NCBI RefSeq assembly: GCF_016908635.1
Contig: NZ_JAFBEG010000021.1
Span: forward strand, 1-38,728
From: Sporohalobacter salinus
GTDB lineage: Bacteria; Bacillota; Halanaerobiia; Halobacteroidales; Acetohalobiaceae
DNA length: 38,728 nt
Direction: 5' to 3'
Position 1 is the stretch's first letter. Every line of letters begins with the position of its first letter. Made by a program: the position numbers and the translations under genes. The notes under the pieces are model-generated. The model was not told the DNA's origin. It saw nothing but the letters and a program-made list of their open reading frames with translations, and did no database searches. Positions 1 through 38,728 of this stretch are shown one piece after another.

Positions 1-71
1 GGACTTCAAATCCGGCGGCGGGCCAGCCTTGAGCTGTCCGCGGTAGGTTCGATTCCTACACATTCCCGCCA
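1..71 (+). tRNA. selC: tRNA-Sec (UCA) 3' portion; attachment-site core next to integrase
   Basis: The sequence starts inside a tRNA gene: the anticodon stem-loop GGACTTCAAATCC carries anticodon TCA, followed by a long variable arm, a T arm (GTAGG, TTCGATT, CCTAC), an 8-nt acceptor strand and G-CCA. The long variable arm, 8+5 acceptor/T geometry and TCA anticodon identify selenocysteine tRNA. The 5' half lies outside the window. An identical 71-bp copy at 38658-38728 is preceded by unrelated sequence, so the functional gene is the one at this end and integration has regenerated its 3' half. Confidence 0.92.
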
Positions 72-186: not shown

Positions 187-1329
187 TCATTTTTTTAGGC
201 TGTTTTTTAGTTTTTGAACAGCTTCTTTTTGCATTGACGGAACTACATGAGAATAGGTATCTAGTGTTTGAGTAATTGTAGAATGCCCTAATCTTTCTTG
301 GACTACTTTTGGATGAACTCCAGCTTTAAGCATAAGGGTTGCATGGGTATGCCGCAGATCATGTAATCTGAATTCTTCGAGGTTTGCTCTTTTAGCTGCT
401 TGATTAAATCTTTTTGTAGCTCTTCTAGGTTTCGTTGGATTTCCATTGGTTTGACAGATAACTAAATTATATTCATTATTATATTTTTTACCTAACCTGA
501 GCTTATTTTCTTTCTGCTCTTTTCTAGCTTTTTTTAAGAGTTTCACTAGATCATCGTCAATATTAATGGGTCTGGTACTGGATTTGGTCTTTGGTTTTCG
601 AAAAACTAATTTTCCCCCAGATATTTCTGTTACACTTTGACGGACACGGATTAACTGCTCTTCAAGATCTACATCTTTCCAACGTAAAGCTAAGATCTCT
701 CCTCTACGCATACCAGTAAATATTGCTATATAAATCATATTGTAAGCCCACCCATTGGCATTAGCTAATAAGTTATCTATTTGTTCCTGTGTCATGGCTT
801 GTATTTCAGGTGTATCTGGACTAGGTGCTTGAATAACTTCGGCTGGATTATTATCTATTACTCTCCATTTTACAGCGTGTTTAAGTGCTTTTGATAACAC
901 TCTATGATGATATTGGACTGTTCGTTTTGATAGTCCTCCCGGTTTACCATCTTTACGTCCCGATTTCAGTTTGTGGTTTTGGTACTTTTTGATATGCATA
1001 GGCTCTAAATCTTCTAATTTAATAGCTCCAAGAGCTGGAATAAGATGACTTTTAATAATCATTTCGTAACTCTCAAAGGTAGAAGGAGCCAGAGTATTTT
1101 CACAGTAATCTTCTAACCACTGTAATAGATATTCTTTTACTGTTAGGTTTGATGGTTCTATATATTGGCCTGATTCTACTTCATGAGCTAATTCATGCAT
1201 TCTAGCTTCTGCTTCCTTCTTAGTTCCGTCTACAGTTTCATAAATTCGCTTTCTTTTACCTGTGATCGGATCACGTCCAGCTTCAACTGTTACTTGCCAA
1301 CTGTCACCTCTTTTGCGTAAGTGAGCCAT
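187..1329 (-). CDS. int: Phage tyrosine-type site-specific integrase
   Basis: Integrates and excises the prophage at the selC attachment site. The 380-residue protein has an N-terminal arm-binding domain (about 1-55, KRGDSWQV...), a SAM-like core-binding domain (about 62-165) and a C-terminal catalytic domain. Visible catalytic residues are R208 (TGMRRGE), K247, H323 and R326 (HDLRHTHAT), H349 (LGHS) and the nucleophile Y359. Length is normal for the Tn916/phage Int family and nothing is broken. The ATG at 1329 has a GAGGAGG site just upstream. It reads toward the tRNA, the classical arrangement for an attP-linked integrase. No convincing promoter was found in the AT-rich leader. Confidence 0.97.
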   Translation of the reverse strand: MAHLRKRGDSWQVTVEAGRDPITGKRKRIYETVDGTKKEAEARMHELAHEVESGQYIEPSNLTVKEYLLQWLEDYCENTLAPSTFESYEMIIKSHLIPALGAIKLEDLEPMHIKKYQNHKLKSGRKDGKPGGLSKRTVQYHHRVLSKALKHAVKWRVIDNNPAEVIQAPSPDTPEIQAMTQEQIDNLLANANGWAYNMIYIAIFTGMRRGEILALRWKDVDLEEQLIRVRQSVTEISGGKLVFRKPKTKSSTRPINIDDDLVKLLKKARKEQKENKLRLGKKYNNEYNLVICQTNGNPTKPRRATKRFNQAAKRANLEEFRLHDLRHTHATLMLKAGVHPKVVQERLGHSTITQTLDTYSHVVPSMQKEAVQKLKNSLKK

Positions 1330-1672: not shown

Positions 1673-2434
1673 TTAAGCTATCTCAGTTAATAATTTATCT
1701 TTTTGGTTCCATTTTATTAACTTGCTATAACTTTTTAATATATTAATTTGAGTTTCAGTCCAATTTTTATTTTTATCTTCAATTAATGATATACTATTAA
1801 CATATTTATTTTTTCTTTTAATATCACTGAAGGCAAAAGCAATTTTTTCAACTTTAGATATAGAAATTGAATTTTCATTTATTGTTTGAATCAAATTTAC
1901 TTTTTCTAATTCTTTAGATTTTACAAAAAAGTCTATTTTATGTTCTTTTGAATATCCATCGAAAGGATAATCTTGTTTATAGTTTATTTTATTTTCATTT
2001 AAAAAGTTAGATACTTCGCTTTTAAAACTAGATTTCTTTATTCTTCTAGAAGTATAAGTTAATAAGCTGATTTCTTGTATAGCATTAATTAATTTATTAA
2101 TATAAGTTTCTATTTTTTCATAGTTTCCTGTAATTTTCAGTTCTCCTTTTTCAAATTTTACATTATATTGTCTGCATTTATTATTTAATATTCTTTTTCT
2201 TCTACTTGAATTTTCAATTTCAATTCCACTAAAAAAAAGATAATCATATACAAGGCAGTTATCAGATAGTAATATTTCTTCATTATTTAGTGGTTCAATT
2301 TTTAATTCTATAATATCATTATCAGGTAACGTAAAAGGGGTGACAATAAAAATTTGACCATTTTTTTCTTTGCAACTAAAGTTATTTTCTATGAATTTAA
2401 TGTAGTTATTAATAGCTTTTTCACATATTTTCAT
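1673..2434 (-). CDS. DUF1828/DUF1829-like protein
   Basis: Function unknown. The N-terminal third (PFTLPDND...LLSDNCLVYDYL) has the pattern I associate with DUF1828, and the C-terminal part (HKIDFFVKSKE...VNLIQTI) resembles DUF1829. Spaced acidic and basic residues in the latter are loosely reminiscent of a PD-(D/E)XK fold, which is only a guess. I place the start at 2434 because an AAAGGGGTGAT site precedes that ATG; an in-frame ATG at 2461 overlaps the upstream stop as TAATG and has no ribosome-binding site. It forms a bicistron with the 2461-2886 gene and is followed by a terminator. Very AT-rich, Lys/Asn-rich composition suggests imported cargo. It could be a toxin-antitoxin or defence pair. 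Confidence 0.72.
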   Translation of the reverse strand: MKICEKAINNYIKFIENNFSCKEKNGQIFIVTPFTLPDNDIIELKIEPLNNEEILLSDNCLVYDYLFFSGIEIENSSRRKRILNNKCRQYNVKFEKGELKITGNYEKIETYINKLINAIQEISLLTYTSRRIKKSSFKSEVSNFLNENKINYKQDYPFDGYSKEHKIDFFVKSKELEKVNLIQTINENSISISKVEKIAFAFSDIKRKNKYVNSISLIEDKNKNWTETQINILKSYSKLIKWNQKDKLLTEIA

Positions 2435-2460
2435 AATAATCACCCCTTTTATTAATATCA

Positions 2461-2886
2461 TTAATAAATCAATAAATCTTTATACCTTCCCTTTTTAGTT
2501 ATTTTACATTCATCTAAAAAATCATGAAAAGCTTGGTTAATATCAGAAATATCTATGTCTGAAACTTCATAAGCAATTTTATCTTCATATTCTTGATGCC
2601 ATTTGTGTTTATGAGGGCCTGTAATAAGTGTGCCATCTGGGTTATAATGTCTTTCCTCAAAATCAAACCTTCTTATACGAATGCAATTTTGATATAAAAG
2701 TACAAATCCAAATTTATTGTTTCTTAATACTCCGTGTAAGTCTAGGTTTTTACTAGTTTTTTTAGTGATCACATTGGCCTTTAATTTATATGAACCAGAA
2801 AAATCATTCCATCTCCATTTGATAACTTTATCAGTTAAGATTTTTGGTTCATTATATATTCTATCTGCTTCCATTTCAGTTATCAT
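2461..2886 (-). CDS. Hypothetical protein, DUF6978-like, paired with DUF1828/1829 gene
   Basis: A 141-residue soluble protein with no membrane segment. A conserved-looking centre (GPHKHKWHQEYEDK) and an acidic C-terminal helix recall small proteins (I believe DUF6978) found beside DUF1828 proteins; this is from memory and unverified. The start at 2886 has GGAGGAG 7-8 nt upstream. Its stop codon touches the next gene, so the two are probably co-translated from the promoter at 2915-2944. Function unknown; a two-gene antiphage or toxin-antitoxin unit is plausible because the pair sits in the lysogenic-conversion region. Confidence 0.6.
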   Translation of the reverse strand: MITEMEADRIYNEPKILTDKVIKWRWNDFSGSYKLKANVITKKTSKNLDLHGVLRNNKFGFVLLYQNCIRIRRFDFEERHYNPDGTLITGPHKHKWHQEYEDKIAYEVSDIDISDINQAFHDFLDECKITKKGRYKDLLIY

Positions 2887-3051: not shown

Positions 3052-3615
3052 TTAATATCCGCTGCCAATTGCTGCATTTGAAAAGGTAAATTGAGTTGCA
3101 TTAACTGTTATGTCAATTAATAAGAAAACTTCAGAAGGGTCTTCATATTCAAGTAACCTATTGCAAGAAACTTTTACAGAAGTTATAAGAGCATCGTCTT
3201 TTAATAAACAAAAGAACGGAGTTCTATTAGATGTTAGCTTTGCATTATTTGGAATTTGTTGTTCATCAGGGCATTGGAGAGCATCAAATAATGTTTTAAG
3301 TTGATTATCAATATCTCCGTTATTTGTTATAATATTACCCGGTTCTTCAGGTCTAAGTAAGGTTATATCTAAAGAGGCAATAAGATAAAGTTCATCAGTT
3401 ATTAGTGGGGCAAATTTAAATTCTTTTATTTCTTGTATAATTGAATTATTATTTTGGTTAGGGTCAGTTTGTAAATGTTCTTTTTTAATTTCTTTTAAAG
3501 GAGATTGACTCCAGAGTTCTTTTAATTGAGGATGAAATTGTTTTCTGATTTCATGCTTATGTTTAATTCCTCCATTTGATTTGAGTTTTCCTTTATATAT
3601 GAGTGGAAAGTTCAT
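3052..3615 (-). CDS. RusA-fold nuclease-like protein
   Basis: The 187-residue product carries the acidic signature of the RusA Holliday-junction resolvase fold: GDIDNQLKTLFDAL (D101, D103, N104, K107, D111) and a later DD pair (D140, D141 in LLKDDAL) before a beta strand. In RusA the DxDN motif and the DD pair bind the catalytic metal. An N-terminal extension of about 75 residues and a long insertion (112-135) set it apart from phage RusA proteins, which usually sit in replication modules; this phage has RecU there. ATG at 3615 follows AAGGAGG. It lies 38 bp after the exonuclease gene, probably in the same transcript, so a role on branched or broken DNA with that exonuclease is possible. Fold call moderately sure; activity inferred. 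Confidence 0.62.
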   Translation of the reverse strand: MNFPLIYKGKLKSNGGIKHKHEIRKQFHPQLKELWSQSPLKEIKKEHLQTDPNQNNNSIIQEIKEFKFAPLITDELYLIASLDITLLRPEEPGNIITNNGDIDNQLKTLFDALQCPDEQQIPNNAKLTSNRTPFFCLLKDDALITSVKVSCNRLLEYEDPSEVFLLIDITVNATQFTFSNAAIGSGY

Positions 3616-3653: not shown

Positions 3654-5291
3654 TTATAACAAACACTCATACAGATAGGTTTTTCCATTCTTACTTTCTT
3701 GATTTAATAGTTCAATGGAAGTTGCAACATCGTTTTGAGCTCTATGTAATTGTTTTTCAGCGATTTGATGTTTTTTTATAAGATTTTCTAATGATTTAGA
3801 TTCAAATCCTTTCTTTTTCCAATTAATATCATTCATAGAACATAACCAAGTTTTATTTTTGACTTCTGGGAATAGTTCTTTAACAAATCTTTTATCAAAT
3901 GAAGCATTATGCGCTATTAAATAATTTGCTTTCTTTATGATATCTTTTATTTTATCTTTATTTAGTTCTTTATCTTTAACATCTTCGTTTTTTAATCCAT
4001 GAATTTTAGTAGCATCTTTTGGTATTTTGATTCCAGGATCGCGTAAATCGGAATAACTATCTTTGATTTCAATAATTTGGCCAGTTTTTTCATCAAACTC
4101 AAATAAAGTTATAGCTAATTCTATAATTTTATCTTGTTGACTTAAGCCTGTTGTTTCTACGTCTATAAAAGCTGCAGTGTTGATTATTTTTTCTTTGTTG
4201 GAAAGTTCTTTTCTTAATTTTTTAGTCTTTCTTTTAACTCCTACTCTGTTATTTATATAAAGGGCTTTTTTAAAATGTTTAAGTGCATCAGATTTATTAT
4301 CTAGTTCAAGATGTATTTCTCCCATGTATCTATGGAGTTGAGAGCCTTTAGTTTTGCTATTTTTGATTTTAGTATCCAAGAGCTCGGTGAATTTCTTCAG
4401 CATAGATTCCAGTTCTTCTTTTGACATTTCTTTTAAATTTTCTTTATGTTTTTCTTTTAATTCTTGAAAGTGATCATAAGGACTCATATTAGCTCGCTTT
4501 TCTTTTCGAAGCTTTTCATGATCTAAAAAGTCTCCATCAAAATTATACTTGTAGCTAGTTCCATCGTTATATTTAAGAATTATCTTTTCTTGTTCTGGGA
4601 GAATCTTTATTTCATTAGCCCCCCAACCAGAAGCAGGAGAAACTGACCATAAAAGTTTGGTTTTAGATAAATTAAAGAAGAACAGCTTTCCAGCATGTTT
4701 TTCATAATTACTGTTGGCGGTTGAACAAATAGCATACTTACCATCATTGGATAAAGAGTTTTGAAATAAATTAGCTTTAAAATTCTTTTTTATTAAGATG
4801 TCTCCTGAACTATCGAAAGCATAAAAAGTACTTGATAAATTTTTTGTTCCCCAATCGTTTATTATACAGTTTCCATTATTAGCTATTTTGCCGTCATTGG
4901 GTCTAGGTAGTTCTTTTTGAAATAACACTTCATCATTTTTTAAAGCAGCCATTTTACCACCGATTTTTTTACCGTTTTCATAATGTCTATCTTTGCAAAC
5001 AATTTTGTAGGTTCCATTAGGAGAGGTAGTTGCGTGACCAATTAGGTCAATTTTTTTGATATGTTCTATATTGATTTCATCTTTTTGATCATTATTGTCT
5101 GATTTATTATTCTTGGTTTTAGTTGTTGATGAAGATGATATTGGAGATTGTTTTTGCTTCTTTTTAAGCGGCAGTATTTTATAAGTTATTAGAGCTAATA
5201 TTATAGTTCCAATAATTTTTCCCTCTGCTAATAAACCAATTGTGATAAGGGCTGTAATAATTCCAAGGATCCATCTTATTATTTTTATCAA
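3654..5291 (-). CDS. Membrane-anchored propeller-TPR-DEDDh 3'-5' exonuclease fusion
   Basis: A 545-residue multidomain protein. Residues 1-45 form a two-helix membrane anchor, followed by a Lys/Ser/Asn-rich linker (45-75). Residues 80-255 look like WD40/PQQ-type propeller strands (SPNGTYKIV, SNDGKYAIC, FFFNLSKTKLLW). Residues 280-365 contain TPR-like helices (ALKHFKKALYIN). Residues 372-530 are a DnaQ-like exonuclease with intact motifs: D377 and E379 (FIDVETTGL), D466 (AHNASFDKRF), H516 and D521 (HRAQNDV). The start is TTG at 5291 with AAAGGAG upstream; the next Met is residue 114. Its membrane module resembles that of the HIRAN protein (6033-6851). Catalysis on DNA or RNA 3' ends is family knowledge; a defence or surveillance role is inference from position among lysogeny genes. 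Confidence 0.85.
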   Translation of the reverse strand: MIKIIRWILGIITALITIGLLAEGKIIGTIILALITYKILPLKKKQKQSPISSSSTTKTKNNKSDNNDQKDEINIEHIKKIDLIGHATTSPNGTYKIVCKDRHYENGKKIGGKMAALKNDEVLFQKELPRPNDGKIANNGNCIINDWGTKNLSSTFYAFDSSGDILIKKNFKANLFQNSLSNDGKYAICSTANSNYEKHAGKLFFFNLSKTKLLWSVSPASGWGANEIKILPEQEKIILKYNDGTSYKYNFDGDFLDHEKLRKEKRANMSPYDHFQELKEKHKENLKEMSKEELESMLKKFTELLDTKIKNSKTKGSQLHRYMGEIHLELDNKSDALKHFKKALYINNRVGVKRKTKKLRKELSNKEKIINTAAFIDVETTGLSQQDKIIELAITLFEFDEKTGQIIEIKDSYSDLRDPGIKIPKDATKIHGLKNEDVKDKELNKDKIKDIIKKANYLIAHNASFDKRFVKELFPEVKNKTWLCSMNDINWKKKGFESKSLENLIKKHQIAEKQLHRAQNDVATSIELLNQESKNGKTYLYECLL

Positions 5292-5380
5292 TTTATCAAA
5301 CTCCTTTTAATTTGTCTTTAATTAGAATAATAGCTAAATATTTATGAAAAGGATAAAAATAAAACACTATTTAATAGTAA

Positions 5381-5470
5381 CTATATTTCAGCAGCAAAGT
5401 TGTCAGCAGTATCTTCTATGGATGTATACTGCATGTTCAAATCGGTTATGTAGTTACGTTCCATAAGCAT
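5381..5470 (-). pseudogene. Remnant 3' end of a second immA-like gene
   Basis: On the minus strand this stretch encodes ERNYITDLNMQYTSIED and TADNFAAEI before a stop, clearly matching the C-terminus of the intact peptidase at 6914 (EHNYIIGLDMHHTSLED, then DADDFALEM). The HExxH part is missing. Similarity continues past the stop into the intergenic region (CTAAATATTT at 5334 and at 6881). It is a diverged duplicate, not a functional gene. Confidence 0.85.
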
Positions 5471-5494
5471 TGCATTTTTTTATGTTATTACTTC

Positions 5495-6019
5495 TTAGTT
5501 ATTAAATTTATCATGTATTTTATTAATAGCATCTGCAGAACCATCTAAAGGGAAACGAAAATAAACTTCACCTTCTCCGTGCCAGTTTAATTCAAGTAAT
5601 AATGTATTTGAGCTCTTAATTTTAGAGATTATACCCTTATCATTTCTGAAATTAAGAAATTTTGACCCCCAATCTTGTGTCAAGGTTGTATTTTTTATTT
5701 TATCATCAAACTTAACTCGGGTATAAATTACATTGTATCCATCTTCAGTTTCAGTATCACTTAGGTTTGGTGCGTTAGAAAAAGCAACATAACCCCATTC
5801 ATCTTCTCCATCATATCCTACAATTAGTGATGCTTTTGTGCCAGTGTATGGAAAATCCATTTTTTCTGTCGTTGTTACTTCTGGTGAAGTAGCATACCAA
5901 GTTTCTGTGCCTTCCATTTCATCTTTTGAAACAAAAGTATCCCATTCATTAGCAGCATAAACCGTATAAGATAACAACAAAACCAGCAAAATACTTAATG
6001 CGATTATTCTTTTTTTCAT
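5495..6019 (-). CDS. Exported TagO/VasI-like protein
   Basis: The 174-residue product begins with a typical signal peptide (KKR, about 15 hydrophobic residues, AxA-type cleavage near residue 22: TVYAANEW). There is no lipobox cysteine. The rest is beta-rich, and the order DDK, W..S.F.., LLLELNW, YFRFPLDGS, AINKI resembles the fold of VasI/TagO-type periplasmic proteins, an assignment from pattern only. It lies 13 bp after the HIRAN gene with a GGGATGAT site before ATG 6019, so the two are co-expressed. An extracytoplasmic product beside two membrane-anchored proteins suggests work at the envelope, perhaps exclusion or sensing. Confidence 0.6.
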   Translation of the reverse strand: MKKRIIALSILLVLLLSYTVYAANEWDTFVSKDEMEGTETWYATSPEVTTTEKMDFPYTGTKASLIVGYDGEDEWGYVAFSNAPNLSDTETEDGYNVIYTRVKFDDKIKNTTLTQDWGSKFLNFRNDKGIISKIKSSNTLLLELNWHGEGEVYFRFPLDGSADAINKIHDKFNN

Positions 6020-6032
6020 AATATCATCCCTT

Positions 6033-6851
6033 TTAATTATATTTGTTTGTCAATCTTCGGAAATCTTTATTAGTGATTCTTTTTTTAAATTCATTTATTT
6101 TGTCGTCTTTTTTTATTTTTAAATATCTATCTAATACTTCAATTGCTTTATTATCTCTTTCAGTGTGATAATATAATTTAGCTAATTGTTCATACATTCT
6201 AGAGTTTGGTTCGTAATCAGGACTTTTATTACAAAATTCGTCTGTTTCAATTGCTTCTAAATATTTGTCTTCTGCTTTTTCTATTTTTCCTCTTTTTCTT
6301 AATTTTTCAGCTTTTTTGTACATTTCAGAAGGAAAATAATCTGAATTAAATTCATCTTCAGATGAAGGTCTGTTTATTTTTATATTACATCCTAGATTTT
6401 TATTTGCCCCTCCAGTCAAATTTGTAATTTCAGCATTTATTTCAGAGCCAGCATTAAGATAGGGAGCTAATTTCTTTGCTAATTTTAATTTTTCTCCTTC
6501 ATTACATTCTTTAAGAATTTCTTGTCTGCTTGTGCCATCGTCATTATCATAAGTGACTCCGACTACTTTAGTATATATAAATTTATTCTGATCAATGTTT
6601 TCTGACAACATTTCGAAAATGATTTTTTCAGCAAATTCTTCATTGTGAGTGGTGTCATTTGTTGATTTTGTATTTTTAGTTGTTGAAATATTATTTTTCA
6701 AATGATCTTGATTTTTATCTTTATTTTTGCGAATAATATGGAAACCCACCATCCCTAAAATAATAGCTATAAATATATTATCACTTAAAAGACCGCCTAT
6801 AGCCATAATGATTATAAAGATTCCAAGAACTAACTTAAATATCCTCTTCAA
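6033..6851 (-). CDS. Membrane-anchored HIRAN-like/TPR protein
   Basis: Residues 1-42 form two membrane helices similar to those of the exonuclease fusion (LGI...IGxLL...IIL). A polar linker leads to a HIRAN-like region at about 92-162 (TKVVGVTYDNDDGTSRQEIL ... LAPYLNAGSEINAEI, GCNIKIN). HIRAN domains bind free 3' ends of single-stranded DNA. The usual middle of the domain (the REPxNPYDxNAI and GY strands) appears to be missing at about residue 124, so this domain is shortened. Residues 175-255 carry two TPR-like repeats. The start is TTG at 6851 with AAGGAGA upstream. It directly follows immA and precedes the exported protein. Confidence 0.72.
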   Translation of the reverse strand: MKRIFKLVLGIFIIIMAIGGLLSDNIFIAIILGMVGFHIIRKNKDKNQDHLKNNISTTKNTKSTNDTTHNEEFAEKIIFEMLSENIDQNKFIYTKVVGVTYDNDDGTSRQEILKECNEGEKLKLAKKLAPYLNAGSEINAEITNLTGGANKNLGCNIKINRPSSEDEFNSDYFPSEMYKKAEKLRKRGKIEKAEDKYLEAIETDEFCNKSPDYEPNSRMYEQLAKLYYHTERDNKAIEVLDRYLKIKKDDKINEFKKRITNKDFRRLTNKYN

Positions 6852-6913: not shown

Positions 6914-7258
6914 CTACCTAACGTTAGCCATCATTTCAAGAGCAAAGTCATCTGCATCATCTTCTAAGGAAGTATGATGCATGTCCAACCCAATTATGTA
7001 GTTATGTTCTGGAAAGTGATAGAGAATATGTTCTACTTCATGCATAAACACCTCCCTTTGCATTTCATAGCCGAGATTTTTATCAATTATTACAAAATAA
7101 TTGCAGTATTCAGATTGATATACAAAGCCCCAGACTTCTTTAGGAAGTTTAGCAAACTGATGATGAATGTTATGCTCCTTAGCCCATTCTTGGAAATTTA
7201 TATAAGTATCATTAAGAGCGTTAAGTACTTGGCGTCTAATCTTTTCTTTATCCCCCAT
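6914..7258 (-). CDS. immA: ImmA/IrrE-family metallopeptidase
   Basis: A small zinc protease of the ImmA type, which in ICEBs1 and many prophages cleaves the adjacent repressor to trigger induction. The HEVEH motif (HExxH) and a downstream acidic ligand region (LEDDADDFALEM) are present and apparently intact. The gene overlaps the repressor 3' end; ATG 7258 gives an 11-bp overlap, while in-frame ATGs at 7276 and 7282 would give longer ones. No start has a strong ribosome-binding site, so translational coupling is likely. A truncated duplicate of its 3' end lies at 5381-5470. Confidence 0.85.
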   Translation of the reverse strand: MGDKEKIRRQVLNALNDTYINFQEWAKEHNIHHQFAKLPKEVWGFVYQSEYCNYFVIIDKNLGYEMQREVFMHEVEHILYHFPEHNYIIGLDMHHTSLEDDADDFALEMMANVR

Positions 7259-7664
7259 GTCTTTCACGCTCTTCATCTTCAATAATTTTAACTATTTCTA
7301 TAATTCGGTGAATTGATTCTGGGCTAAGGTCTTTAGTTTGCTTAAACATTAGTTTCAGATCTTCCCGGGTAGATAATTGCTCCCAAAATTCCTGTAAATC
7401 TTCATCATCTTCTAAGGCTTGTTTAATTTTGTTTGCTTTTTTGTTTTCAGTATTTGGGTTACGTTGGTCTACTTGACCAAGAAGATAATCAATACTACAA
7501 TCAAAAAAATTTGCTATTTTTGTTAACATTGAATGATCTGGATTTCTATTTCCCCGTTCATAATTAGATACAGCTTGTTCAGAAATTCCTATTTTTTCTC
7601 CTAATTCTTTTTGAGTCAAACTATTTTCTTTTCTTAGCTTTTTAAACCTATCTTTGAATTTCAT
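7248..7664 (-). CDS. CI-like HTH_XRE prophage repressor
   Basis: The 138-residue protein has an N-terminal XRE helix-turn-helix (about 5-60: FKKLRKENSLTQKELGEKIG, ISEQAVSNYERG) and an acidic helical C-terminal tail. Without an autoproteolytic LexA/CI domain, relief of repression by the coupled ImmA peptidase is expected. I place the start at ATG 7664, preceded by TTGGAGGT; an upstream in-frame ATG at 7739 would put the predicted promoter inside the gene. It is transcribed from 7699-7726 and a TAAACA palindrome at the transcript start suggests self-control. Confidence 0.88.
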   Translation of the reverse strand: MKFKDRFKKLRKENSLTQKELGEKIGISEQAVSNYERGNRNPDHSMLTKIANFFDCSIDYLLGQVDQRNPNTENKKANKIKQALEDDEDLQEFWEQLSTREDLKLMFKQTKDLSPESIHRIIEIVKIIEDEERERHGG

Positions 7665-7678
7665 AATTACCTCCAATG

Positions 7679-7693
7679 TAAACAGTTTGTTTA
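7679..7693. promoter_or_regulatory. Repressor operator palindrome
   Basis: TAAACA-GTT-TGTTTA is a perfect 6-bp inverted repeat around 3 nt, located at the predicted start of the repressor transcript. TAAAC half-sites recur at 7773, 7797 and 7807 around the opposing promoter. Confidence 0.55.
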
Positions 7694-7698
7694 TATTT

Positions 7699-7726
7699 AT
7701 TATATCACCTTTTACCTCCTTGTAAA
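7699..7726 (-). promoter_or_regulatory. Repressor/cargo promoter (PRM-like)
   Basis: On the minus strand TTTACA (7721-7726) and a perfect TATAAT (7699-7704) are separated by 16 bp. It drives the repressor and probably immA and the cargo genes behind it. Confidence 0.7.
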
Positions 7727-7767
7727 TATAATGAAACAAATTGAATAGAAAACTATCAAAATCCCCC

Positions 7768-31530: not shown

Positions 31531-33381
31531 ATGCTAAGTTATCATAGTGTAGCACTAAAAGAAGATGGAACACTGAAAGCCTGGGGACATGATGATTATG
31601 ATCAAGTAACAGACACACCTACAGATAGCGGGTATGAACAGGTAAGTTGTGGAATGTTTCATAATGTAGCACTAAAAAAAGATGGAACACTGAAAGCCTG
31701 GGGACTAGATAATGATAATCAAGTAACAGACACGCCTACAGATAGTGGGTATGAACAGATAGCGTGTGGGCGTTACTATAATGTGGCACTAAAAGAAGAT
31801 GGAACACTGAAAGCCTGGGGACGAGATAATGATAATCAAGTAACAGACACACCTACAGATAGTGGGTATGAACAGATAGCGTGTGGGCGTTATCATAGTG
31901 TAGCACTAAAAGAAGATGGAACACTGAAAGCCTGGGGACATGATGATTATAATCAAGTAACAGACACGCCTACAGATAGCGGGTATGAACAGATAAGTTG
32001 TGGATTATACCATAGTGTAGCACTAAAAGAAGATGGAACACTGGAAGCCTGGGGACATGATGATTTTGATCAAGTAACAGATACACCTACAGATAACGGG
32101 TATAAACAGGTGAGTTGTGGAATATTTCATAATGTAGCACTAAAAGAAGATGGAACACTGAAAGCCTGGGGACGAGATAATGATAATCAAGTAACAGACA
32201 CACCTACAGATAACGGGTATAAACAGGTAAGTTGTGGAGGTTACCATAATGTAGCACTAAAAGAAGATGGAACACTGAAAGCCTGGGGACGAGATAGTAA
32301 TAATCAAGTAACAGACACACCTACAGATAGTGGGTATATTTTTTTAATGACTTCTTCGGGTAATATTATTACTGAAGATCCTCCAATAGAAAGTTCAGCG
32401 TTTTTTTATGGGAGGGGTAAACAATATGTCAATGCTGAAACAGAAGAAATACCGTTAATAACTAGCTCAGTGTCTTTTCAGGGATCAGGTAAAAAACAAA
32501 TTAATGGTACATTAATTATCACTACTGCAAGCGTACAACATCAAGGAACAGGTGAACTGCAAGCTCCAGCAGATAAAATTAAAGGTGCTAGGTTGCACTA
32601 TACTGGAGATGGAACCCAGCAGTCCAGAGCAAAGGCTGAGATGAATGCTAGTTCTAATGCTTATGGGAAAGGGAAGATGAAATACAAGGCGCTTATATTA
32701 TCTATTCCAGATGGTGCTTATTTAATAGATAAAGATAATTATAGAAGCAAAAACCAGCCTTCTAAGTCTGATGAGATGGCGAATAAAATCATAATTAATA
32801 CTCAACCACTTGTTCCGCTTTCAGAACAGCAAGTATATGAGAAAGAATTAACACTTAGTGTCGGAGAAATCAAAAATATTACAGCAAAATATGATGACAG
32901 CGACATACCAGTTATTGATTCTATTGCTAGTCTTACTGGTAATACAAATAGTACCATCAATAGTACTGAATATTATGCCTGGGGGGCTGACATAACAATA
33001 GAAAATACAGGAAGTAGTGAAGAAACCTTCACATTAATTATTAATGCGAAACCTCTGGAAGTACAAGGAATAGAAAAAGTAACTGCTAAGGATGAAGCAA
33101 GTATTAGAGAGCATGAAGAAATTAAGTATGATCTAGAAGAGAATCATTTAATTCAAAAAGAAGAAATGGCGCAACAAATAGCTGATATTGTTCTTGCAAG
33201 CGCAAAAGATCCGCGACGTGATGTAGAACTTGATTGGCGTGGAAATCCAGCATTAATATTAGCTGATTTAATTACTGTCCCCGAATATAGTGACTATGGG
33301 AATTTCTATGTAACAAGACAAAATTTAGAATATGATGGTGCATTAACTGCAAATACAGAGGGGAGGAAGATCAATGTCTGA
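31531..33381 (+). CDS. Seven-bladed RCC1-like fibre protein fused to a tail-tip C-terminal domain
   Basis: A 616-residue fusion. Residues 1-270 contain seven near-identical 39-residue RCC1-type repeats (VALKEDGTLKAWG ... QVTDTPTDSGYEQ), the number for a closed propeller. Residues about 280-385 have spaced G-x-G fibre repeats (SSVSFQGSGKK, ASVQHQGTGELQ). Residues 388-616 (SIPDGAYLIDKDNYRSKNQP onward) look like the missing C-terminus of the 29626-30846 tail protein. ATG 31531 has only a weak ribosome-binding site. ATG 31511 has AGGGGG upstream but its frame ends after MYRVMIKC; a one-base change would join it to SYHSVALKEDG. Likely receptor-binding. Confidence 0.8.
   Translation: MLSYHSVALKEDGTLKAWGHDDYDQVTDTPTDSGYEQVSCGMFHNVALKKDGTLKAWGLDNDNQVTDTPTDSGYEQIACGRYYNVALKEDGTLKAWGRDNDNQVTDTPTDSGYEQIACGRYHSVALKEDGTLKAWGHDDYNQVTDTPTDSGYEQISCGLYHSVALKEDGTLEAWGHDDFDQVTDTPTDNGYKQVSCGIFHNVALKEDGTLKAWGRDNDNQVTDTPTDNGYKQVSCGGYHNVALKEDGTLKAWGRDSNNQVTDTPTDSGYIFLMTSSGNIITEDPPIESSAFFYGRGKQYVNAETEEIPLITSSVSFQGSGKKQINGTLIITTASVQHQGTGELQAPADKIKGARLHYTGDGTQQSRAKAEMNASSNAYGKGKMKYKALILSIPDGAYLIDKDNYRSKNQPSKSDEMANKIIINTQPLVPLSEQQVYEKELTLSVGEIKNITAKYDDSDIPVIDSIASLTGNTNSTINSTEYYAWGADITIENTGSSEETFTLIINAKPLEVQGIEKVTAKDEASIREHEEIKYDLEENHLIQKEEMAQQIADIVLASAKDPRRDVELDWRGNPALILADLITVPEYSDYGNFYVTRQNLEYDGALTANTEGRKINV
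31551..32340 (+). repeat. Seven tandem 117-bp RCC1-type repeats
   Basis: AGCACTAAAAGAAGATGG-type blocks (GGCAC in the third) recur at 31551, 31668, 31785, 31902, 32019, 32136 and 32253, exactly 117 bp apart. Units are nearly identical except at two short clusters: after AWG (HDDYDQ, LDNDNQ, RDNDNQ, HDDYNQ, HDDFDQ, RDSNNQ) and after CG (MFHN, RYYN, RYHS, LYHS, IFHN, GYHN). Confidence 0.9.
32693..32701 (+). repeat. 9-bp direct repeat TTATATTAT, right copy
   Basis: Right partner of the copy at 30836-30844. Joining the two would give an uninterrupted frame NKYNVIL-SIPDGAYLIDK and a tail protein of about 632 residues. Confidence 0.5.
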
Positions 33382-36666: not shown

Positions 36667-36751
36667 TCTAACTCAGTCTTATTATGTATAATTGTAATTT
36701 TTTAGGAGAAGATATATTATACATTAAGATAGTAATTAATAAATTAGGAGG

Positions 36752-36760
36752 TGTTAGAAT
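36752..36760 (+). promoter_or_regulatory. Third TGTTAGAAT copy at the Panacea start codon
   Basis: TGTTAGAAT repeats the operator arm of 36632-36641 and overlaps the ribosome-binding site and start codon of the 36759 gene. Confidence 0.5.
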
Positions 36761-37280
36761 GGGGGAGGTAGTTTGGTTAAGTGAAAGGAGGGGGAGCATG
36801 GGTGAAATAACTTATGAAGATATTGCAAATTATTTCATAGCTAGAGCTAATGTAACGGGGGATTTAATTACAAATTTAAAGTTGCAAAAACTAGTTTATT
36901 ATGCTCAAGCTTGGCATTGGACAATATATGATGAAAAATTATTTGAAGGTAAATTTGAAGCTTGGGTCCATGGACCAGTATTACGTTCTTTATATAATGA
37001 ATACAAACAATTTGGATGGAAGCCGATAGAAAAGGATGACTTAGATAGAGATGCTTTATCTAAAATACGAGCAAAATTAGGACAAGAGAAGGTAGATTTT
37101 ATGGAAGAAGTAGTAGAAGAATATTTTGGTCTTAGTGCGTATGAATTAGAAAGATTGACTCATGTAGAAGATCCTTGGAAAAAAGCCAGAGCAGGTTTAG
37201 ATCCAGACCAACCTTCTAACAAAAAAATTGAAAGTAGTTGGATGAGAGAATATTATAGTAAATTTTTAGGTAGTGATTAA
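36759..37280 (+). CDS. Panacea (DUF4065/SocA-like) antitoxin
   Basis: About 173 residues with the Panacea signature: TNLKLQKLVYYAQAWHW, KFEAWVHGPVLRSLYNEYKQ, FGLSAYELERLTHVEDPW. Panacea domains neutralise many different toxin partners and occur often in prophages. Two starts have good sites: ATG 36759 (AGGAGGTGTTAGA) and ATG 36798 (AAGGAGGGGGAGC), the latter matching the usual domain start. The partner gene begins 1 bp after its stop. Operator-like repeats upstream suggest autoregulation. Confidence 0.85.
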   Translation: MGEVVWLSERRGSMGEITYEDIANYFIARANVTGDLITNLKLQKLVYYAQAWHWTIYDEKLFEGKFEAWVHGPVLRSLYNEYKQFGWKPIEKDDLDRDALSKIRAKLGQEKVDFMEEVVEEYFGLSAYELERLTHVEDPWKKARAGLDPDQPSNKKIESSWMREYYSKFLGSD

Positions 37281-38657: not shown

Positions 38658-38728
38658 GGACTTCAAATCCGGCGGCGGGCCAGCCTTGAGCTGTCCGCGG
38701 TAGGTTCGATTCCTACACATTCCCGCCA
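38658..38728 (+). repeat. Right attachment core (71-bp copy of tRNA-Sec 3' part)
   Basis: Identical over 71 bp to positions 1-71. The sequence just upstream (CATAAAATGCTCAAATA) cannot form the 5' half of a tRNA, so this is the displaced tRNA 3' end at the distal prophage junction. Confidence 0.93.

Follow-up and report, generated by a model that had tools for sequence, protein, structure and literature searches.

SNIPE, a nuclease bound to the membrane, cleaves phage DNA as it is being injected, and it turns toxic when deprived of its membrane domain (PMC13190303). Zorya and Kiwa are membrane-localised defence systems (reviewed in PMC12904381), the diDNase-HIRAN-HipA clusters, which reside on mobile elements and frequently have defence genes nearby, combine a DEDD nuclease with an adjacent HIRAN gene (PMC11706625), and TREX1 is a tail-anchored DEDDh DNase (PMC11904002). 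Here we describe two genes, P0001 and P0002, on contig NZ_JAFBEG010000021.1 (C21) of Sporohalobacter salinus, a stretch of 38,728 bp that was analysed whole and is called the window hereafter. The window is an entire contig of its genome and one listed viral contig, and the identical 71-bp repeat at its two ends (1-71 and 38658-38728) marks it as a complete prophage. A first-pass annotation had proposed that the two gene products act together at the membrane on incoming or damaged DNA. The reading we favour is that P0002 would be a membrane-tethered 3'-5' exonuclease, expressed in the lysogen for superinfection exclusion and attacking incoming DNA; judged from the sequence and the structural model, we consider this reading about evenly poised between right and wrong. 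Both are minus-strand open reading frames at the places first given, in the interval from an ImmA-like gene to an integrase gene, and their parts are as follows.

3654..5291, minus strand: P0002, two-helix-propeller-TPR-DEDDh exonuclease, 545 amino acids, TTG start (Pfam, active-site residues, AlphaFold model, Foldseek)
5166..5291, minus strand: two-helix anchor of P0002, residues 1-42 (homology to the P0001 anchor)
4521..5069, minus strand: beta-propeller of P0002, residues 75-257 (16 strands; predicted local distance difference test, pLDDT, mostly 81-98; Foldseek fragments 6r60 and 6r5y)
4194..4520, minus strand: TPR region of P0002, residues 258-366, closing with the family GVKRK motif (alignment with propeller-TPR proteins)
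3657..4193, minus strand: DEDDh domain of P0002, residues 367-545, PRK09182-like (Pfam RNase_T, 2e-18)
6033..6851, minus strand: P0001, two-helix-HIRAN remnant-TPR protein, 272 amino acids, TTG start (AlphaFold mean pLDDT 71)
6723..6851, minus strand: two-helix anchor of P0001, residues 1-43 (homology to P0002; model helices 2-18 and 24-53)
6366..6584, minus strand: HIRAN remnant of P0001, residues 90-162, 30 residues shorter than its relatives (alignment; profile match in two pieces)
6036..6326, minus strand: TPR region of P0001, residues 176-272 (Pfam TPR_2 2e-5 and TPR_12 1.2e-4, both below curated cut-offs)

The exonuclease site of P0002 is intact, as first read: D377, E379, D466, H516 and D521 are all present, and together with the RNase_T match (E=2e-18) and the fold they place the domain in the DEDDh superfamily. 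Its model matches the folds of Pol III epsilon, ExoX and TREX in Foldseek (TMt 0.74 to 2gui). The nearest annotated subfamily is PRK09182/NF006615, with E=6.6e-52 over residues 335-542, that is, the C-terminal part of P0002 only; at 176 bits against a curated cut-off of 207, the protein falls outside NF006615. Among PADLOC models, P0002 matched only generic DEDDh and PDC-S48. The AlphaFold model shows two N-terminal helices, a confident propeller (residues 75-250) and a very confident exonuclease, and the part that had been described as propeller-like is upheld both by its 16 strands, with pLDDT mostly 81-98, and by a family of homologues; it may act as a sensor. The TPR repeats assigned to both proteins find support, though only at scores below the Pfam cut-offs (TPR_2 at 8.5e-4 in P0002).

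The similarity between the N-termini of the two proteins proved to be real homology of a common two-helix module. The anchors align with a BLOSUM score of 91 over 72 amino acids, a value reached in 0/5000 segment-preserving shuffles, which rejects mere hydrophobic composition as the source of the likeness, and P0001 and P0002 find each other in a whole-genome search (E of 1.6e-4 and 5.7e-4). A recent DNA duplication was also rejected, as the DNA similarity is limited to a short piece. The anchor is rare, being found in 4 of 299 genomes of the phylum with a three-row profile. Two proteins of genome G218 begin with it, one a DEDDh-BRCT protein (L033) and the other an HNH protein (L319), and against either of them the P0002 anchor again scored higher than all shuffles (0/5000 each). 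The presence of homologous anchors on P0001, P0002, the two-helix DEDDh-BRCT protein and the two-helix HNH protein indicates that this module was repeatedly attached to nucleases. The HNH nuclease with the P0002-type two-helix anchor is encoded on the minus strand of L320 (4822-5364), in the genome that has the two-helix DEDDh-BRCT protein as well. Two further candidate relationships were rejected as demonstrable ones: that of the P0001 anchor alone to the HNH anchor, as 397 of 5000 shuffles scored as high, and that of the two-helix HIRANs of L251, L256 and L261 to the P0001/P0002 anchor, as shuffles were not clearly exceeded.

The P0002 gene belongs to the lysogeny module and lies on the opposite strand from the remaining phage genes. 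On the minus strand the order is HTH repressor, ImmA-like gene, P0001, exported protein P0003, P0002, RusA-like P0004, PDC-M24A/B and tyrosine integrase, a position from which the cluster genes are probably switched on in the lysogen. We gathered viral relatives of the P0002 exonuclease by profile, regarding those with a score of at least 180 as close; contig scans covered up to 80 loci each, and membrane helices were called by hydropathy only in this and the other surveys. Among the matches listed, 6 of the 7 close viral relatives carry a membrane helix outside the exonuclease domain, compared with 3/21 chromosomal ones (p=0.001). All six of these anchored viral genes (L153, L154, L155, L156, L157 and L159) have as neighbours a repressor of cI type and an integrase, either tyrosine or serine. 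Both neighbours occur within 3 kb of only 2/58 unanchored phage exonucleases among the matches listed (p=4e-7, window excluded); the repressor and integrase hidden Markov models (HMMs) were partly trained on the tested loci and the absolute counts are approximate, but the tags of these loci and some Pfam checks agree, Pfam bearing out the integrase in L153 and L155 and the repressor in L157 and L159. A class defined by a close exonuclease relative, a membrane helix, and a repressor and an integrase within 3 kb comprises the window, L153-L157 and L159. The anchors of the six other members are mostly C-terminal, unlike the N-terminal anchor of P0002, so that what recurs is tethering and position and not one inherited protein. 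In a poorly resolved exonuclease tree, anchored and unanchored proteins are intermixed (8 label changes versus 8.8 in shuffles), and it is suggested, not proven, that anchored exonucleases arose several times.

P0001 had been credited with a HIRAN-like domain, and this holds as far as descent is concerned. An HMM built from five HIRANs matches the protein in two pieces (E=2.3e-19), and by this alignment the domain is HIRAN-derived. The Pfam HIRAN model (PF08797, gathering score 24.7) gave no match to P0001 at E<1, and Foldseek on the P0001 model returned weak TPR-type matches only, with no HIRAN structure among the matches listed. That model, with a mean pLDDT of 71, shows two helices, the shortened HIRAN and helices of TPR type. 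Compared with the host RecJ-HIRAN and with stand-alone HIRANs, P0001 is missing 30 residues that bear the REPxNxYDxxA...GYL motif, and the possibility that it keeps a full HIRAN was rejected on this gap. The compared HIRANs carry R-[ED]-P-x-N-x-[YF]-D-x-x-A...G-[YF] at this place, the sole exception being the degenerate HIRAN of G271; in P0001 the gap removes the pocket segment with its conserved N-x-[YF]-D and GY/GF. From knowledge of the family we take the missing segment to be most of the HIRAN 3'-end pocket, as the literature searched names no pocket residues. Its loss makes canonical 3'-end binding by P0001 unlikely, and the earlier idea that the HIRAN binds 3' ends which the exonuclease then digests is no longer a safe reading. 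The deletion junction lies near 6477-6485, and the DNA frame of P0001 runs uninterrupted across it and into the TPR region. Searches for relatives of P0001 in phage and plasmid records gave none, and viral contig searches with P0001 alone or with P0002 alone found the window's own record only. The host itself encodes a RecJ-HIRAN-helicase fusion, one protein of about 1220 amino acids (L002/L122, G000:C3, near 169640-169933), and long HIRAN proteins similar to it recur across the phylum. A fragment resembling the P0001 C-terminus lies in a genome of the same family (L054:8604-13230), in a disrupted defence-like region among transposase and SIR2-like genes.

Anchored HIRANs recur as well. A membrane helix was found in 15 of 72 distinct viral HIRAN genes, and a repressor or integrase lies within 4 kb of 11/15 of these versus 3/57 of those without a helix (p=1e-7). 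All pocket-less viral HIRANs are membrane-anchored, seven by pattern and eight once L312 was read by eye (p ~5e-7, a value that overstates their independence since some are interrelated); in other phages, anchored HIRANs of this kind occur in L246, L248, L249, L251, L253, L256 and L312. A HIRAN-TPR gene with an intact pocket sits between integrase and repressor in G229 (L141), a DEDDh domain is fused to the degenerate HIRAN in G271 (hhalign probability 92), and prophage L273 has a membrane-anchored HIRAN beside a DnaQ-like DEDDh. A DEDDh match occurs in 1 of the 15 records with an anchored HIRAN. Among individual loci, L248 (6367-9972) has a lysogeny region with a LexA-like repressor, an ion-channel-like gene, a pocketless membrane-anchored HIRAN and a serine recombinase; L115 (1183-2352) encodes a membrane-anchored double HIRAN and L011 (1288-1818) a lipoprotein-like HIRAN.

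These observations bear on the alternative that survives best, namely that the two genes are independent morons whose common anchor stems from duplication, with only P0002 active and P0001 decaying. The 30-residue deletion would suit a decaying gene, the pair was not found elsewhere, and 204 bp separate P0002 from the gene before it. The tight spacing reported at first thus holds for two pairs, the exported gene lying about 14 bp from P0001 and the RusA-like gene about 38 bp from P0002, but not upstream of P0002. However, the P0001 frame stays open past the deletion and on into the TPR region, an intact HIRAN-TPR gene occupies another integrase-repressor module (L141), and anchored pocketless HIRANs in several other phages indicate that pocket loss is recurrent and not mere decay. 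We regard independent morons as a real but unlikely possibility.

The stretch from residue 76 to residue 370 of P0002 falls into a family not named by Pfam and defined by a propeller with a C-terminal TPR region ending in a GV[KAS]R-type motif, a definition that fits P0002. The family HMM matches P0002 at E 4e-122, P0002 being a training sequence, and relatives of 26-33% identity were found independently by tblastn; a contig scan with a six-row propeller alignment gave nothing, its rows being too divergent. Propeller-TPR proteins were found in 33 genome contigs, and proteins of 290-370 amino acids occur on Pseudomonas, Pantoea, Sphingobium and Salinibacter plasmids. A stand-alone propeller without TPR, 40% identical to that of P0002, lies in the lysogeny region of another prophage. 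In sphingomonads the propeller-TPR part is fused to a VRR_NUC nuclease, and its presence there and on the DEDDh domain of P0002 shows one module on two unrelated nucleases. About ten propeller-TPR genes follow an AbiE pair (AbiEii was confirmed in L105 and L079), one is near CBASS, and in L084 (3040-8846) a metallophosphoesterase gene and a gene for a 1192-amino-acid AAA protein (SbcCD type) precede one with tight spacing. Read by eye, these proteins start with a short segment of amphipathic or membrane type. The sphingomonad loci L080, L090, L098, L100, L104, L105 and L108 encode propeller-TPR proteins with VRR_NUC fused, or of equal length, and several of these genes lie directly 3' of AbiEi and AbiEii, with which they would form a candidate system of three genes.

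In the superinfection-exclusion reading, the two N-terminal helices would hold P0002 in the inner membrane, and by the positive-inside rule both its termini, hence the enzyme, are expected to face the cytoplasm. The propeller-TPR part would be a regulatory or docking module that recognises an injection-associated or DNA-associated protein and positions or releases the DEDDh domain, which would then digest the 3' ends that linear DNA exposes as it enters; the integrated DNA of the lysogen would be spared, having no ends and lying away from the membrane. P0001, on its duplicated copy of the anchor, would most likely be a partner or adaptor whose TPR region could bind P0002 or the target of P0002, its HIRAN remnant probably having been repurposed away from 3'-end binding. 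Tethering, the intact exonuclease, the recurrence and the SNIPE precedent speak for action at the membrane on incoming DNA, while joint action of the two proteins, as first proposed, is something we only infer.

Several observations weigh against this reading. The exact pair of a two-helix HIRAN-TPR protein and a two-helix propeller-TPR-DEDDh protein was found in no other place, being known from one prophage only; a HIRAN was present in 0/11 viral records with exonuclease relatives, some of them fragments. P0001 has lost its motif-bearing HIRAN segment, and 18 of the 21 chromosomal close relatives of the exonuclease among the matches listed have no anchor. Structure prediction, a check proposed earlier, was confident for the propeller and exonuclease of P0002 but poor for its TPR stretch. 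DEDDh enzymes, moreover, serve DNA repair and proofreading too.

The last point leads to the possibility that P0002 is an enzyme serving the DNA metabolism of the phage or lysogen, active in end trimming, repair or recombination, kept by its anchor at a replication or excision site associated with the membrane, and with no part in defence. Many phage DEDDh proteins are annotated as Pol III epsilon-like, the RecJ-HIRAN-helicase fusion of the host shows that HIRAN and nucleases meet in repair, and one propeller-TPR gene lies near umuC. Such an enzyme fits less well with the place of P0002 among the lysogeny genes, whose strand is not that of the remaining phage, and with the finding that repressor and integrase adjoin all anchored close exonucleases and only 2/58 unanchored ones among the matches listed, and we hold this explanation to be improbable. 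A barrier to plasmids or transforming DNA in place of phages seems to us somewhat less probable again: a membrane-placed 3'-5' exonuclease would be expected to meet the incoming single-stranded DNA of conjugation or transformation, and propeller-TPR genes do occur on plasmids, but the prophage location and the repressor-integrase linkage suit a superinfection role better. The least probable is a TREX1-like clean-up of stray DNA ends near the membrane that keeps end- or DNA-sensing defences of the host silent and so protects the lysogen, for although the DEDDh domain with a C-terminal membrane tail in L153-L157 and L159 has the TREX1 layout (PMC11904002) and TREX1 is among the fold matches of P0002, the likeness is limited to layout and general fold and there is no sign of a DNA-sensing pathway to silence.

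The remaining features of the module and of the prophage ends are these.

7248..7739, minus strand: cI-like HTH repressor (Pfam HTH_3, 5e-18)
6914..7282, minus strand: ImmA/IrrE-like protein (Peptidase_M78, below cut-off)
5495..6019, minus strand: P0003, exported protein, 174 amino acids (phrog_1848, unknown function, E=5e-4 only)
3052..3615, minus strand: P0004, RusA-like, weak assignment (Pfam RusA E=0.12; phrog_140 E=0.054)
1673..2886, minus strand: PDC-M24A/M24B candidate defence pair, DUF6978 and DUF1828/1829 (PADLOC, 5e-18 and 3e-39)
187..1329, minus strand: tyrosine integrase (Pfam Phage_integrase, 3e-32)
1..71, no strand: left att repeat (identical to 38658-38728)
38658..38728, no strand: right att repeat (copy of 1-71)

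The exported protein begins with a signal-like hydrophobic segment, read from the sequence; it had been called TagO-like, a name that the absence of any Pfam match and the single hit to phrog_1848 do not sustain, and the RusA-fold nuclease assigned to P0004 is likewise weak at the E-values listed. Searches for phage relatives of P0003 and P0004 gave none, and neither gene has a demonstrated link to the action of P0001 and P0002. Promoter and terminator scans did no better than shuffles. The PDC-M24A/B pair sits between the P0001/P0002 cluster and the integrase. The att repeat looks like the 3' portion of a tRNA, probably tRNA-Sec given its TCA anticodon and long variable arm; ARAGORN found no complete tRNA gene there. 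By eye, we also noted a likeness to Panacea/SocA-type (DUF4065) antitoxins at 36684-37280 and, near the tail genes at 31531-33381, a long RCC1-like repeat protein, possibly a receptor-binding protein.

If the superinfection-exclusion reading is true, SNIPE, Zorya and Kiwa are not alone in attacking incoming DNA from a membrane tether, and temperate phages assembled such attack repeatedly from exonuclease and HIRAN parts, kept beside the repressor where lysogens express genes. It would also yield a directly testable prediction of how entering DNA could be distinguished by a prophage from its own integrated copy, and a simple gene-finding rule, an anchored DEDDh or HIRAN between repressor and integrase. 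The propeller-TPR family, until now without annotation and fused to two unrelated nucleases, receives a name here. More tentatively, and with somewhat more doubt than confidence, we propose that prophages of many lineages carry an undescribed class of superinfection exclusion in which DEDDh or HIRAN domains sit on interchangeable anchors and are expressed in lysogeny, the propeller-TPR part is a portable sensor of unrelated nucleases, and anchored HIRANs have repeatedly traded the 3'-end pocket for a new ligand.

None of the systems compared here has quite this make-up. PADLOC found in the cluster no signature proteins of its systems, only the generic DEDDh, PDC-S48 and PDC-M24A/B models, and no match to ZorA/B/C/D or KwaA/B among the six cluster proteins scanned, although membrane components and DNA-acting proteins at the injection site are a likeness to Zorya and Kiwa. 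Lambda RexA/RexB, a lysogen-expressed exclusion pair of a DNA-binding and a membrane component, is similar in outline, but differs in that its RexB is an ion channel and its RexA no exonuclease. The diDNase-HIRAN-HipA clusters share with our locus a DEDD-superfamily nuclease and a HIRAN gene on a mobile element; diDNases, however, are NrnC-like deoxydinucleases that come with HipA, whereas here the nuclease is PRK09182-like DEDDh, membrane anchors and TPR are present, and Pfam and PADLOC found no HipA among the cluster genes scanned. TREX1 is a membrane-anchored DEDDh 3'-5' exonuclease with the layout of L153-L157 and L159, but it is eukaryotic, has a C-terminal anchor in the endoplasmic reticulum and removes self DNA, while P0002 has an N-terminal anchor and a propeller-TPR unit. 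SNIPE has one helix, DUF4041 and a GIY-YIG endonuclease, where P0002, encoded among the lysogeny genes of a prophage, has two helices, propeller-TPR and a DEDDh exonuclease; the Pfam scan of P0002 gave RNase_T and weak TPR only, with no DUF4041 or GIY-YIG. P0002 nevertheless resembles SNIPE in its predicted N-terminal anchor, of two helices, in a middle domain that would serve recognition and in a C-terminal nuclease presumed to face the cytoplasm, with a proposed action on entering DNA. By this analogy, and with the same even weight that we give the exclusion reading of which it forms part, P0002 may work like SNIPE while not being a member of that family.

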